Part shown: positions 17,971-33,440 of the stretch, in pieces
Layout of the letters: the number at the start of each line of letters is the position of its first letter
How positions within the stretch are numbered: position 1 is the first letter of the stretch
Assembly: GCA_002083825.1 (NCBI GenBank)
Contig: DAZV01000057.1
Span: 1-64,000 of the forward strand
Direction of reading: 5' to 3'
Source: Candidatus Sericytochromatia bacterium S15B-MN24 CBMW_12
Lineage (GTDB): Bacteria; Cyanobacteriota; Sericytochromatia; S15B-MN24; UBA4093
Length of the DNA: 64,000 nucleotides
The notes under the pieces: model-generated
What the model saw: only the letters and a program-made list of their open reading frames with translations
The model's database searches: none
Told to the model about the DNA's origin: nothing
Program-made: the position numbers and the translations under genes

Positions 17971-20004
17971 ATGACGTCACCTCACGCATCCATCCTGGTC
18001 GTTGGTGCTGACGGATTTAACCGGGAGGATCTAGCGGGGCAAGACTTCGAGGTGACCCTCGTCGATGATGGGCCGCAAGCTCTAGATTTGCTCAAACAAA
18101 ACCAGTTCGATCTCGCCCTCGTCGATCTGCAGAGTGCCGGTTTGGAGGGGCTCCGGACCCTCGAAGCCATGAAGTCCCTCGATCCCAGCCTCGAGGTCAT
18201 CGTGACGACGGTTTCGTCCGACATCGAGACCGCTATCGCCAGCGTGCAAGGTGGTGCGTATGACTACCTCATCAAGCCATACCCCCGTGCCGAGTTGCGT
18301 TTCACTCTGGGGCGAGCGATGGAGAAGTGCAACCTCGAGAGGATCAATCTCCTGTACGAGGCGAGTACTACCCTGCTCGGAACTCCCAATCCCGAGGATC
18401 TGCTCGATCTCGCCCTGAGTCTTGCGGGGCATGTGCTCAAGACCAGCGAGATGGGACTCGCCGTGCTCCGGACCGATCGAGACGGCTACCACCTGTACCG
18501 ATCGAGTCAGAGTCAGAAGTATTCCGACACCCTCCTTGCCCCATTTGTTCAGCGTGCTCTTGAGGCCGACAAGCCGCTCTTCTTGCGTTTCGAGCCGACT
18601 GAGGGGGATTCAGCACATCTTGCGCTTAACCAAGCGGATGCCGGGTATGCTTTCCCTCTGCACGTGGGGGATCGGCACCTCGGGGCCCTGGTGATGGTGC
18701 GGGAGATCTCGCTGCCTGCCTTCACCCCGGCCAATCTGCAGCAAGGAAAATTCCTCGCCTCCCAGATCGCGCTGGCGCTCGACAACGCGCGACTCTATAG
18801 CGAACTCTCGAAGGCCGAAGAACGCACGCGGCTCAACGAGGGCAGGCTCCAGGCCATCGTGAATGCCGCCTTCGACGGGATCATCACGCTCGATCGAAAG
18901 CTGTCCATCGTGGCCATGAACCCCGAGGGCGAACGTATCTTCGATCGTTCCAGCGTAAAAGCGGCAGGCTTGCCATTCCTCATGCTCGTCGATCAGCTCG
19001 GCAAGCGTGACGGTACCCTCCGGGAGGCTCGAGGCATCGAGGCCAGGGTGATTCTGCCCGACGGCCCCTCGAGGCCCGTCGAACTCTCCATCACGGAATT
19101 CGAGACCGCGGATGGTGGCGGGTTCGTGTCTTTCGTTCGGGATGTCAGCGAGACCAAGCGCATCGAGGTGGAGTTGCGCCATTCCCAGAAGCTCGAAGCC
19201 GTCGGTCGCCTATCTGCGGGTATCTCCCACGAGATCAACACCCCCACGCAGTACGTCGGCGACAGCATTCACTTCCTGAAGGGCGCCTTCGCCGACCTGG
19301 CCACCATGATCGCCGCCTACCAGGCGTTGCTGGGCAGTGCGGTCGAGGCCCGTTTCGGGCCGGAGGAGATCGCGCGCCGCGAGGAAGCCGAGGAAGATGC
19401 CGATCTGGAGTATCTGATGGAAAACGTGCCCAGGGCCATCGACCGTGCGCTTGATGGCGTTTCGCGGGTGGCGACGATCGTTCAGGCCATGAAGCAGTTC
19501 GCTTACCCCGATCGTGAGGAGAAGTCCAGCGCCGATCTCAACAAGGGGATTCTCAGCACCCTGGCCGTCGCCAACAGCGAAATCAAGTACCTGGCCAAGG
19601 TTTCTACCGATCTCGGGGACCTCCCCCCGGTGATCTGCCATATCGGGGACCTCAATCAGGTCGTACTCAACCTCCTGGTGAATGCCGCTCATGCCATCGA
19701 GGATAACCACCAGCCCTCGGGAAGCATGGGGTCGATTCACATTCGGACCGTTCAGGAGGGTGAGTGCGTCCTCATCACCGTTCGCGATTCCGGATCCGGC
19801 ATTCCGGAGGCCATCCGCGAGAAGATTTTCGAGCCCTTCTTCACCAGCAAGACCGTGGGGCGCGGTACGGGCCAGGGACTGGCCTTGGCTCGTGCCATCG
19901 TGGTGGATAAGCATGGGGGGGAGATTTGGTTCGAGAGCGAGCAGGGCCTGGGAACGACCTTTTTCATCAGACTGCCGATCAACGGCGGGGAGGGGACCCG
20001 ATGA
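17971..20004 (+). CDS. Hybrid REC-GAF-PAS sensor histidine kinase
   Basis: A 677-residue soluble kinase. The N-terminal REC domain (about 5-120) keeps the phospho-acceptor region (LALVDLQ) and the lysine (LIKPYP), but the usual acidic DD pair is replaced by VVGADG, so Mg binding may be impaired. A GAF-type domain spans about 130-280 and PAS about 295-405. The kinase core has the H-box LSAGISHEINTPTQYVGD, N-box LNLLVNAAHAIED, G1 DSGSGIP and G2 GTGQGLALARAIV. The ISHEINTP type with N-terminal REC recalls kinases controlling c-di-GMP or motility outputs. It overlaps the next gene by ATGA; the operon continues through 22410. Confidence 0.9.
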   Translation: MTSPHASILVVGADGFNREDLAGQDFEVTLVDDGPQALDLLKQNQFDLALVDLQSAGLEGLRTLEAMKSLDPSLEVIVTTVSSDIETAIASVQGGAYDYLIKPYPRAELRFTLGRAMEKCNLERINLLYEASTTLLGTPNPEDLLDLALSLAGHVLKTSEMGLAVLRTDRDGYHLYRSSQSQKYSDTLLAPFVQRALEADKPLFLRFEPTEGDSAHLALNQADAGYAFPLHVGDRHLGALVMVREISLPAFTPANLQQGKFLASQIALALDNARLYSELSKAEERTRLNEGRLQAIVNAAFDGIITLDRKLSIVAMNPEGERIFDRSSVKAAGLPFLMLVDQLGKRDGTLREARGIEARVILPDGPSRPVELSITEFETADGGGFVSFVRDVSETKRIEVELRHSQKLEAVGRLSAGISHEINTPTQYVGDSIHFLKGAFADLATMIAAYQALLGSAVEARFGPEEIARREEAEEDADLEYLMENVPRAIDRALDGVSRVATIVQAMKQFAYPDREEKSSADLNKGILSTLAVANSEIKYLAKVSTDLGDLPPVICHIGDLNQVVLNLLVNAAHAIEDNHQPSGSMGSIHIRTVQEGECVLITVRDSGSGIPEAIREKIFEPFFTSKTVGRGTGQGLALARAIVVDKHGGEIWFESEQGLGTTFFIRLPINGGEGTR

Positions 20005-21182
20005 AGCGCATTCTCTTTGTCGACGACGAGCCGGGTGTCCTCGAAGGGATCCGCGATCTCTTGCGCCCTTATCGACGCAAGTGGGACATGGTCTTCGTCG
20101 TCAGCGGCGAAGCAGCGCTTGAAGAGCTGGAGCGCGCGCCTTTCGACATCATCGTCTCGGACATGCGCATGCCGCAAATGGATGGCGCGACGCTTCTCAA
20201 GGCCGTCCAGACGCGATTTCCCCGGGTGGTGCGCTTCATCCTCTCGGGCTATTCGGAATTCGAAGCGTCCCTTAGCAGCGTGTCCGTCGCACACCAGTTC
20301 CTCAGCAAACCCTGCGATCCCGAGCAATTCCGCGGTGCCCTGGAACGCGCTTGCAGCCTTCGTGACCTCCTCAACGATGAGGCGCTCATGGCGACCATCG
20401 GCGAGATCTCCAGCCTGCCTTCCGTGCCTGCCGCATACCGGGCAATCACCCGTGCGCTCGAGAACCCGGACGCCAAAGTCAAGGAGATTGCCGCCATCAT
20501 CGAGCAGAACTCCGTGATTTGCGCGAAAATCCTCCAAGTGGCCAACTCCGCTTTTTTCGCTCCCGCTCATCGCGTCTCGAGCATCGCGGAGGCCGTCAGT
20601 TACCTGGGGATCACCATGCTGAAGACGCTCGTGCTCTCCTTCGAGTCGTTCGGCCATTTTCGCATGGGGATGCGGGTGCCGGAGGCTGAAATCGACCGCC
20701 TACAGCGGAGAGCCTTGCTCACCGCGAGGCTCTGCAGGCAGATCGCGGGTCCGATCGGGGCCGAGGAGGCTTTCACCAGTGGCCTTCTTCATGACATCGG
20801 GTATCTGATCATCGCCTATTATTTGCCCGATCGGTATAAGCGCCTTTTGGCTGCAAGTCAGGCAGAGGGACGTCCCTTTCACGAACTCGAGCGGGAGTTC
20901 TACGGAATTACGCATGCCGAGCTAGGCGCCTATCTTCTGGGCTTGTGGGGGCTACCCAACCCCATCGTGGAAGCCGTCGCGCACCACCACGAGCCTTGGC
21001 GCGTGCCCCACGCGGCGTTTGGAAGCCTGGATGCTCTCTACGTAGCCGACGTCCTGATCCTCGAACAAGAGGGATCAGGCGCGACCCCACCGCTGAATGT
21101 CCTCCACCTCGAGACCTTGGCTGCGCCGGCCGAGGTGCATCACTGGCGTGAACTCGCCCGGGAGCTGATGACGCATGACTAA
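20001..21182 (+). CDS. Response regulator with HDOD output domain
   Basis: A 393-residue protein. REC (about 1-120) is complete: ILFVDDE, the phospho-acceptor in IIVSDMRMPQMDG and the lysine in FLSKPC. The HDOD domain (about 140-340) carries LPSVPAAYRAI and VICAKILQVANSAFF, then a metal-dependent-HD-like GLLHDIGYL and a later VAHHHEPW. HDOD proteins are signalling adaptors, usually non-catalytic, tied to c-di-GMP and stress networks. The ATGA overlap with the upstream kinase and the 8-nt overlap with the next gene show a tightly coupled operon, so this is the likely phosphotransfer partner. Confidence 0.9.
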   Translation: MKRILFVDDEPGVLEGIRDLLRPYRRKWDMVFVVSGEAALEELERAPFDIIVSDMRMPQMDGATLLKAVQTRFPRVVRFILSGYSEFEASLSSVSVAHQFLSKPCDPEQFRGALERACSLRDLLNDEALMATIGEISSLPSVPAAYRAITRALENPDAKVKEIAAIIEQNSVICAKILQVANSAFFAPAHRVSSIAEAVSYLGITMLKTLVLSFESFGHFRMGMRVPEAEIDRLQRRALLTARLCRQIAGPIGAEEAFTSGLLHDIGYLIIAYYLPDRYKRLLAASQAEGRPFHELEREFYGITHAELGAYLLGLWGLPNPIVEAVAHHHEPWRVPHAAFGSLDALYVADVLILEQEGSGATPPLNVLHLETLAAPAEVHHWRELARELMTHD

Positions 21183-22410
21183 GAAGACCTCCCCGCTGCC
21201 TCGCATCCTCTTCGTCGACGACGAAGCTAACTTGCTCGAAGGGGTTTCAGTAGCATTACGGCGTCACTTCGAAGTGGTCACCGCCATCAGCGGCGTGGCT
21301 GCGCTCGCCCTGATGAAGGTCCAGGAACCCTTTGCCGTGGTGGTCGCCGACATGCGCATGCCCGTCATGAACGGTGCGGCCTTCCTGAGCCGCGCGCGGG
21401 AGGAAGCGCCTGACATGGTGCGCATCCTGCTGACCGGTCAGACCGATCTGGAGTCTGCCATCACTGCGGTGAACCAAGGCGGCATCTTCCGCTTCCTCTC
21501 CAAGCCATGTCAACCCGATCTGCTCTTGAACTCCCTCCAAGAGGCCATCGACCAGCACCATCTGCTCACCGCCGAGCGGGTTCTGCTGGAAGAGACCCTT
21601 CATGGTTGCATCCAAACCCTCACGGATGTTCTGGCCCTCAGCCAACCCACGGCGTACGGAAAGGTGCGACGCGCCCAGCAGCGGGTGGGTCGGCTTGCCG
21701 CCAGCCTCAAGATCTCAAACCGCTGGGAAGTCGAGGTCGCCGCCATGCTGTCTCAGATCGCCTGCGTGACGCTTCCTCCCTCCACGGTGGCGAAGCAATA
21801 CCTCGGACAACCGCTGGACGATACCGAGCAGGACATGATCCGCCGCCTCCCTCTGGTGACCGATCTGCTGCTCGCGAACATCCCTCGGATCGAGGGCATC
21901 CGGACAATCCTGAGGCATCAGGGCACGCGTTTCGACGGAGCCGGCGGTCCCGAGTCCGGGCTGAAGGGGGGAAGCCTCCCATGGGGAGCGCGCGCCCTCA
22001 AGATCGCGCTGGACTTTGACGAACTCGAGGCCCAGGGAATGCGGACCTCCGAGATTCACTTGACCTTGCAAGAACGCCAGGGGTGGTATGATCCCCATCT
22101 CTTGAAGGCTTTTATCGCCCTCTTCGAGGTTTCCGATTCCGAAGAGATCGTCCGGCTCCACACGCTCGCCGAACTCAAGAACGGCATGATCTTTGCCGAG
22201 GACGTCTGCAACTCCGACGGTGCGGTCTTGGTTGCTCGAGGCCATGTGGTCACGGCGGGCCTGCTGGCGCGTCTCAAGAACTTCTCTTTCGACAAGCTCA
22301 GCTTCCGAGTCAGTATCCCCAGTCCTCCCGAGCCCCTCGCCGATCCCGTTCCCGCCCTTGCAACCACGGCTCCCCCGCAAGCCGATGGCGGGGATCGATC
22401 GTCGCCTTGA
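21175..22410 (+). CDS. Response regulator with degenerate HD-GYP domain
   Basis: A 411-residue protein. REC (about 8-128) is intact, with ILFVDDE, VVVADMRMPVMNG and FLSKPCQPD. The second half resembles RpfG-type HD-GYP phosphodiesterases: the terminal signature region survives as HQGTRFDGAGGPESGLKGG followed by ALKIALDFDEL. The catalytic HDxGK segment is replaced (AAMLSQIACVTLPPS), so c-di-GMP hydrolysis is unlikely and a binding or scaffold role is inferred. A Pro/Ala-rich tail ends the protein. It overlaps the HDOD gene by 8 nt and is the last gene of the signalling operon. Confidence 0.85.
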   Translation: MTKKTSPLPRILFVDDEANLLEGVSVALRRHFEVVTAISGVAALALMKVQEPFAVVVADMRMPVMNGAAFLSRAREEAPDMVRILLTGQTDLESAITAVNQGGIFRFLSKPCQPDLLLNSLQEAIDQHHLLTAERVLLEETLHGCIQTLTDVLALSQPTAYGKVRRAQQRVGRLAASLKISNRWEVEVAAMLSQIACVTLPPSTVAKQYLGQPLDDTEQDMIRRLPLVTDLLLANIPRIEGIRTILRHQGTRFDGAGGPESGLKGGSLPWGARALKIALDFDELEAQGMRTSEIHLTLQERQGWYDPHLLKAFIALFEVSDSEEIVRLHTLAELKNGMIFAEDVCNSDGAVLVARGHVVTAGLLARLKNFSFDKLSFRVSIPSPPEPLADPVPALATTAPPQADGGDRSSP

Positions 22411-22412
22411 CC

Positions 22413-22482
22413 CATGCAAGGAGTTTCAATCTCGCGGTGGGGTCTCGGCACGGCCCCACCCAGGTGAAACTTCCGTTGCATG
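22413..22482 (+). other. Three-tier nested hairpin downstream of the signalling operon
   Basis: Three perfect stems are nested: CATGCAA (22413-22419) with TTGCATG (22476-22482), AGTTTC (22422-22427) with GAAACT (22466-22471), and GGTGGGG (22436-22442) with CCCCACC (22454-22460). Internal loops of 2/4 and 8/5 nt separate them. This looks like a folded RNA rather than a plain terminator, since no U-run follows. Confidence 0.6.
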
Positions 22483-22490
22483 CAGTAGCT

Positions 22491-22515
22491 GAAAATTGGA
22501 GCTGAAAATTAGACC
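22491..22515 (+). repeat. Tandem AGCTGAAAATT repeat
   Basis: AGCTGAAAATT occurs twice in a row with a 13-bp period, immediately after the nested hairpin and overlapping the start of the phased TTAG/TTAA array. Confidence 0.45.
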
Positions 22516-22541
22516 AATCTTAACCGGATGTTAGGAAGATT
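22509..22541 (+). promoter_or_regulatory. 11-bp-phased TTAG/TTAA/TTAG operator
   Basis: TTAG (22509), TTAA (22520) and TTAG (22531) start exactly 11 bp apart: TTAGACCAATC, TTAACCGGATG, TTAGGAAGATT. An overlapping dyad (CAATCTT facing AAGATTG) could also form. It lies 60-90 nt upstream of the lipoprotein start. Confidence 0.55.
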
Positions 22542-22599
22542 GAGCGAGAAAAACGGGATAACCTCCTCACGTACCGATGACTTTGAGGGAGGATAACGC

Positions 22600-23091
22600 G
22601 TGAAGGCAGTTTGGACAGTGGCGTTGGTGACCCTTTTGGCCGGATGCGGCACGATGCCGCAGATGGTCTCTGGGACCTCATCCTCGGACTCGGTGGAGGC
22701 AAACGGCCTCTTCTCCTCCTTCAAGGAAAGCAACTATACTCAGCAGGCATCAATAGCCGACATGCGGAAGTTCGCCGACGACGAAGCGAGCAACCGGGCG
22801 CAAGCCGGCAAGCGTTTCCAGGCGACCGGAACGATCGGCTGCTCCATCGGGGACATGCAGCTGGTGGACGCGAATGACGTCACCGTGACCCTTTCTTCCG
22901 GCGCCGAGTACGCGTACATCCACCGTGAGCGCTTTATCTTGGGGAGCAAGGCGCGGGCCTTCATCGCGAATGTGAAAGGCGATCAGCCGGGACTCTCGAC
23001 CATCTACTTCACCGTGAAGACCGGAAACCTCAACACCCGGATCCACGTGGACGCCATCAAGCGGCCGGACGGCAAGATCATCAAGCTATAA
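22600..23091 (+). CDS. Small lipoprotein of unknown function
   Basis: A 163-residue protein starting at GTG 22600, behind GGAGG. The signal peptide ends in the lipobox LLAGC (about residue 16). After a Ser/Thr-rich linker a beta-rich domain of about 100 residues carries RFQATGTIGCSIGDMQL, VTLSSGAEYAYI and STIYFTVKTG. I do not recognise a family. It is preceded by a phased TTAG/TTAA operator and a nested hairpin, and shares a bidirectional terminator with the convergent lipoprotein gene. Confidence 0.7.
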   Translation: MKAVWTVALVTLLAGCGTMPQMVSGTSSSDSVEANGLFSSFKESNYTQQASIADMRKFADDEASNRAQAGKRFQATGTIGCSIGDMQLVDANDVTVTLSSGAEYAYIHRERFILGSKARAFIANVKGDQPGLSTIYFTVKTGNLNTRIHVDAIKRPDGKIIKL

Positions 23092-23102
23092 CGACTCACA
23101 GA

Positions 23103-23136
23103 GCGAAGCGCCCCCGGTCATCCGGGGGCGCTTCGC
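23103..23136. terminator. Bidirectional hairpin between two convergent lipoprotein genes
   Basis: A 15-bp perfect stem, GCGAAGCGCCCCCGG facing CCGGGGGCGCTTCGC, with a TCAT loop. No U-run is present on either side, but the stem is very stable. Confidence 0.7.
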
Positions 23137-32372: not shown

Positions 32373-33440
32373 TTATACCCGGGAGGCGGCTTGAATAGTC
32401 ATTCTCGCCGTGAGCAATGCCCCCAAGATAATGGCCGTGGCGACTTCACGGCTCTGGTAGGCGCTACGCCCCAAGGTGAAGTAAAGAGGTTCAGCCGCCC
32501 ACCCGCCATCATTTGCTTGCTGCGTGACGAGCCAAGCGGCGGCGCGTTGCAGGGCAAGCTGGCCCTCTGGGGGAGTCCAGTCCCGTCCGGCTGCCAGGGC
32601 TTCGATGCAGAACGCGGTTTCCTGAGCGGCGGCGCGCATAGCCTCGTCGGGGGCCTGCTCGACCGGAGCGCGAAGTGGAGCCCAGGAACCTTCGAGAGCT
32701 TGGCGTTCGATCATGCTCGCCAGGGCGGCTTGGATTGCAGGGCGAGTTTCGGGAGCCAGGTGAGGCAAAAGATCGGTGACCTTGCGCAGGGCACGGACCA
32801 CCTGAAAGGTTCCATAGCCCCATCCCCAGTACCAGTAGCCCGCCCAGCCTTCCGGAGATCGCCTTTGAATGAGCCAGCGAGCGCCTTTTTCGAGCTGCGC
32901 CGCGTAGCGTTCGGGATCATAGGTGGCCAATGCATCGAGAAGGTTGGCCAGCACTTCCGGATGGCAGAGGTCGTCCCCGCCGGCCCAGCTGAGGCGGGCG
33001 TTCTCGGCGGCTAGGGCATCCGTGACCAGCCATGTATTGCAACTTCCGTCGGGGTGGAAGTTGCTATCCAGCATGGCGAGTGGTCCCGCGAGGATCGTGT
33101 CGCGATCCTCCCAGTCCGTGAGCGTGAGCACGTGGATGACGTGGGCCAGATCATCGGCATCCGGTGGGATCTGCGGGAAGAGGTTAAAGTAGCGCCAGCC
33201 CGTATCGTCGCCCAGGGCGACGATGGTTTCAACCTCGCGGCGGGCGAGTTCAACCGCCACGCTTGAGTTCAGCTCCGGGCGAGCCAGGGCTAGCGCGATG
33301 AACGACAGTGGGAAGACGGTCCCGATGAGTAGGGGCGCGCCGCGAAAGCCGGCCTGGATTTCCCAGGCATCCCGGAAGCCCGAGCTTCCTGCTGCAATCA
33401 GGAAGCCCAGCGCCCGGGAAATGGAGGCATCGGAGGGCAT
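32373..33440 (-). CDS. Terpene-cyclase/prenyltransferase-fold protein
   Basis: A 355-residue alpha/alpha-barrel protein with several PFTB/QW-type repeats (DGSCNTWL, EGSWAPL, NDGGWAAEPLYFT). An Asp-rich PPDADDLAHVIHVL motif resembles the DxDD acid motif of class II terpene cyclases such as squalene-hopene cyclase. At about half the length of those enzymes (roughly 620-720 residues) it would be a single-barrel form, so activity is uncertain. It lies 6 nt after accA and 9 nt before the SpoIIE gene, apparently in the accD-accA transcript. No isoprenoid genes are nearby. GAGGT before ATG 33440 supports the start. Confidence 0.7.
   Translation of the reverse strand: MPSDASISRALGFLIAAGSSGFRDAWEIQAGFRGAPLLIGTVFPLSFIALALARPELNSSVAVELARREVETIVALGDDTGWRYFNLFPQIPPDADDLAHVIHVLTLTDWEDRDTILAGPLAMLDSNFHPDGSCNTWLVTDALAAENARLSWAGGDDLCHPEVLANLLDALATYDPERYAAQLEKGARWLIQRRSPEGWAGYWYWGWGYGTFQVVRALRKVTDLLPHLAPETRPAIQAALASMIERQALEGSWAPLRAPVEQAPDEAMRAAAQETAFCIEALAAGRDWTPPEGQLALQRAAAWLVTQQANDGGWAAEPLYFTLGRSAYQSREVATAIILGALLTARMTIQAASRV

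Follow-up and report, generated by a model that had tools for sequence, protein, structure and literature searches.

A U-tract-less 29-pair hairpin directly after a signalling operon of a Sericytochromatia bacterium: a candidate 3'-end stabilising element

According to Dar and Sorek (2018, summarised in PMC13289151), GC-rich hairpins that lack a U-tract mark E. coli message 3' ends that exonucleases have trimmed back once Rho has terminated transcription. In photosynthetic cyanobacteria, which have no Rho, the ends of messages are not well accounted for (PMC13289151). A computational study of 13 genomes has also argued that many terminators can do without a U-tract (PMC8355165). Here we describe a hairpin from a genome that, to judge from the families and genome sizes of its relatives, appears to represent a branch of the cyanobacterial phylum that has Rho and is not photosynthetic. 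Like the U-tract-less 3'-end stabilising hairpins, which include Rho-trimmed ends and the E. coli REP elements, it is a strong, GC-rich hairpin near a stop codon, has no U-tract, and lies in a genome with Rho. It differs from them in being single copy rather than part of a repetitive family, and in having A-rich rather than C-rich sequence downstream. It resembles a canonical intrinsic (Rho-independent) terminator in lying 3' of the last stop codon of an operon, but it has no T-tract and its stem is longer and bulged. The hairpin is an ordinary element of a known kind, and nothing points to a novel RNA family or a riboswitch.

The features of the locus are collected in Table 1, with positions given in the window, the whole 64-kb stretch of DNA that was analysed. 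The hairpin is 70 bases long (CATGCAAGGAGTTTCAATCTCGCGGTGGGGTCTCGGCACGGCCCCACCCAGGTGAAACTTCCGTTGCATG), and its minimum-energy fold is a single stem-loop with a 7-base loop and five unpaired arm bases. The original prediction placed it correctly at 22413-22482 and described a three-tier nested hairpin of 7, 6 and 7 pairs. These perfect blocks do exist (CATGCAA/TTGCATG, GTTTCA/TGAAAC and GGTGGGG/CCCCACC), but the tiers do not, since GGA/TCC pairs bridge blocks 1 and 2, with one-base bulges at 22471 and 22475, and T-G, C-G, T-A and G-C pairs bridge blocks 2 and 3. These short helices link the blocks into one long bulged hairpin rather than a multi-tier architecture. The palindromic outer end that had been predicted is there as well, as the hairpin merges with the palindrome TGCATGCA at 22477-22484, contained in TTGCATGCA. 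Because the hairpin is an inverted repeat, the opposite strand folds nearly equally well (-37.7 vs -41.1 for the + strand, over the same 101 bases around the hairpin).

Table 1. Positions of the hairpin and its neighbours in the window.
Feature	Position	Strand	Detail	Basis
Histidine kinase, operon gene 1	17971..20004	+	receiver, GAF, PAS and HATPase_c domains	Pfam matches, ORF
Response regulator with HDOD domain, operon gene 2	20001..21182	+	overlaps both neighbours	Pfam matches
Response regulator with degenerate HD_5 domain, last operon gene	21175..22410	+		Pfam, motif comparison
29-pair hairpin	22413-22482	+	arms 22413-22444 / 22452-22482, loop 22445-22451	sequence, folding, shuffles
A-rich spacer	22483..22599	+	ends in GGGAGG Shine-Dalgarno sequence	sequence, composition, pattern search
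Small lipoprotein gene	22600..23091	+	GTG start, lipobox LLAGC	ORF
15-pair perfect hairpin, comparison case	23103..23136	+	between lipoprotein gene and convergent neighbour	sequence, gene-end hairpin survey

The hairpin starts 3 bases past the stop codon (22408-22410) of the last of three overlapping genes, which encode the kinase, the receiver-HDOD protein and the receiver-HD_5 protein. In the HD_5 regulator, SQIA replaces HDIG and HQGTRFDGAGGP replaces HHExxDGxGYP, so that the catalytic HD and HHE/GYP motifs are both lost. Homologues with approximately 33-50% identity from many phyla have lost these motifs too, while a few at approximately 30% retain HDIG. Since the motif loss is common to homologues of many phyla, the HD_5 regulator looks like a member of a widespread pseudo-HD-GYP subfamily. 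The original prediction was right that the hairpin follows a signalling operon, but its "c-di-GMP-type" label appears doubtful given the degenerate HD and HHE/GYP motifs of the last gene. A lipoprotein gene does follow on the same strand, as was also predicted, starting 117 bases 3' of the hairpin. A Pfam search of this lipoprotein gave no match.

The hairpin is real and beyond chance. Its 70 bases fold at -38.4 kcal/mol against a mean of -20.5 (sd 3.0) for 2,000 dinucleotide shuffles, none of which folds as well, and hairpins of at least 27 pairs with at most six unpaired arm bases are expected 0.10 times per 64-kb strand, with one observed; on both measures the hairpin is more than a chance product. 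Its strength is not extreme for the 64-kb window, as a hairpin of at least 24 pairs with an energy of -38 or below turns up in 26 of 48 shuffled windows and 12 other non-overlapping 70-base stretches of the + strand fold better.

In this genome, the 3' ends of genes are enriched in strong hairpins. Our gene-end survey covered 344 kb, with 316 genes called by a simple in-frame hexamer model, and took the strongest single hairpin within 100 bases after each stop codon having a gap of at least 70 bases (n = 144 ends). A hairpin of -25 kcal/mol or below is present at 55.6% of these 3' ends, compared with 24% of 74 divergent upstream (5') regions and 31% in the means for shuffles of the same 144 ends. 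At a threshold of -35, the corresponding values are 23%, 4% and 3%. In these calls the lipoprotein start came out at 22693, 3' of its position at 22600, which makes 5' distances based on them approximate; stop codons underlie the 3' statistics. The hairpin described here ranks 23rd among the 144 ends. At 50 of them there is a perfect core stem of at least eight pairs (score at least 22), and the 10 bases after these strong stems contain 4.3 T on average, with at least five T in 26 of the 50, which indicates that T-tailed terminators are common in this genome. With a single T in the 10 bases after its core stem, the hairpin at 22413-22482 falls in the minority without a T-tract, and the tail after the full hairpin (CAGTAGCTGA) contains no U-rich tract of the intrinsic terminator type. 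It may lie outside the class of typical 3' stems of this genome, being longer and more bulged than those.

The genome carries a full-length rho gene at G000:C42:93995-95224 (L131), scoring 638 bits, above the curated cut-off. The same search found a full Rho over the cut-off in each of the eight genomes that belong to the class but not to the order, no Rho in six of nine relatives within the order, and none in any searched genome of the phylum outside the class. This distribution would fit either patchy loss of Rho near the root of the phylum or incomplete assemblies.

We consider it probable that the hairpin is a U-tract-less 3'-UTR or intercistronic hairpin of the kinase/HDOD regulator/HD_5 regulator operon, one that blocks exonucleases while transcription is terminated by Rho or partly reads through. 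The + strand RNA would form a long, stable stem-loop without a U-tract directly after the last stop codon, and this stem-loop would act as a roadblock to 3'-5' exonucleases, thereby setting or protecting the 3' end of the operon message. Polymerase would be released downstream of the hairpin, probably by Rho. Alternatively, transcription may partly continue into the lipoprotein gene, with the hairpin serving as an intercistronic stability element, a variant that is equally simple. The hairpin may also make a modest contribution to termination or pausing. We infer transcription of the hairpin, protection of the RNA 3' end and the termination route from observed features of the locus and genome, namely the hairpin, its position, the missing T-tract, the excess of strong hairpins at 3' ends, and the rho gene. 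One observation counts against the Rho-trimmed model. Rut-like sequence, C-rich and G-poor, is absent from the 80 bases after the hairpin, which are too poor in C to be rut-like (40% A, 14% C, 26% G). The composition of this spacer is exceptional, with only about 1 in 80 comparable 3' ends equally A-rich or equally C-poor. A pattern search also identified a tandem direct repeat, AGCTGAAAATTGG/AGCTGAAAATTAG, at 22487-22512 within the spacer, and this repeat could possibly be a regulator site or an RNase cleavage region. A scan of the spacer for sigma-70 promoters found none.

Given the argument that U-tracts are dispensable, we keep as the main rival an intrinsic terminator proper, whose strong hairpin frees polymerase without a clear U-tract. 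The position after the operon stop codon and the strong GC-rich stem are those of a terminator, and poly-U was often missing from the terminator hairpins inferred in the 13-genome study (PMC8355165). Against this, the terminator scan did not pick up the hairpin, and the missing T-tract, with one T where strong 3' stems of this genome have a mean of 4.3, argues against a canonical intrinsic terminator, so we regard this explanation as unlikely. The original prediction had preferred a small ncRNA, a riboswitch-like leader or a 3'-end element to a terminator. The preference over a terminator holds narrowly, on the same T count, and the 3'-end option is supported by the position of the hairpin and by the excess of strong hairpins that follow stop codons genome-wide; the riboswitch and ncRNA options have no such backing. 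In these, the hairpin would be part of the lipoprotein 5' leader or an independent small or regulatory RNA that switches lipoprotein expression. It does lie on the same strand shortly before the lipoprotein start, and a CCTCC segment could pair with the Shine-Dalgarno sequence, but the leader between hairpin and gene is no more structured than its shuffles (z = +0.4), and at -8.7 the possible Shine-Dalgarno hairpin falls short of the mean of its shuffles (-9.7). Like the riboswitch and structured ncRNA families of Rfam, the hairpin is a stable local RNA structure near regulatory genes; unlike them, it has no multi-branch architecture and no conserved relatives, and it matches none of 4,227 Rfam families. 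With no second copy, and no homologue by sequence in 97 other genomes or by covariance model in 38 relatives, we find a leader or small RNA very unlikely.

The hairpin could also function as a DNA palindrome, either as the binding site of a dimeric regulator or as what is left of a short REP- or MITE-like mobile element with an inverted repeat. The long inverted repeat and the palindrome at its outer end would suit this explanation, but a palindromic operator does not need 29 pairs, and REP and MITE elements are multi-copy whereas this hairpin is single copy by sequence and model. Since it also has no match among phages and viral contigs, and only one 31-base, chance-level match among plasmids, we rejected a repeat or mobile element, and we consider the DNA palindrome as a whole to be quite unlikely. 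Highly improbable, too, is a lineage-specific regulatory unit, made up of the hairpin plus the A-rich spacer and the tandem AGCTGAAAATT repeat within it, through which attenuation or processing would link lipoprotein expression to the signalling operon.

Searches by DNA similarity and with a covariance model both returned the hairpin as single copy in its own genome. DNA similarity gave nothing beyond short chance pieces in 97 other genomes, and the covariance model, built from the hairpin and its 29 pairs (a one-sequence model of limited reach), found only the hairpin itself above chance in its own genome and 38 relatives. The nearest of the relatives compared belongs to the same family, and none to the same genus. 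A scan of the upstream protein against the genomes of 84,980 species found only distant homologues, at most 46% identical. G002 represents a different family within the order; its homologue of the upstream gene (52% identical) has a further gene only a few bases behind it and no hairpin. The lipoprotein has weak homologues in G002 and in G001, a member of the same family; these sit in other settings, with no comparable hairpin in front of them within the leader sequence examined. As no relative was found, the hairpin is either lineage-specific or too fast-evolving. In G001, a very long imperfect inverted repeat with GC-rich arms of approximately 50 bases lies beside the 3' end of the lipoprotein homologue (L006 1296-1450).

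A match with three mismatches at position 33226 of the window has no second arm and falls within a predicted gene; it was attributed to chance. The reading of the hairpin, with its GTTTCAATC start, as a CRISPR-like repeat was rejected because it is single copy. Elsewhere in the genome, a 24-pair, T-less hairpin located approximately 20 bases after a stop codon (L111 9143-9192; G000:C42:89143-89192) is stronger than the one at 22413-22482. Its ends are also CATGC/GCATG, but it has no sequence relation to the hairpin and is itself single copy, so it was rejected as a sibling; the pattern CATGC-N-GCATG is common and uninformative.

Taken alone, the hairpin is of little importance, as a 3'-UTR hairpin of a common kind. 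The formation of 3' ends in this Rho-bearing branch would be a useful comparison with the photosynthetic cyanobacteria.
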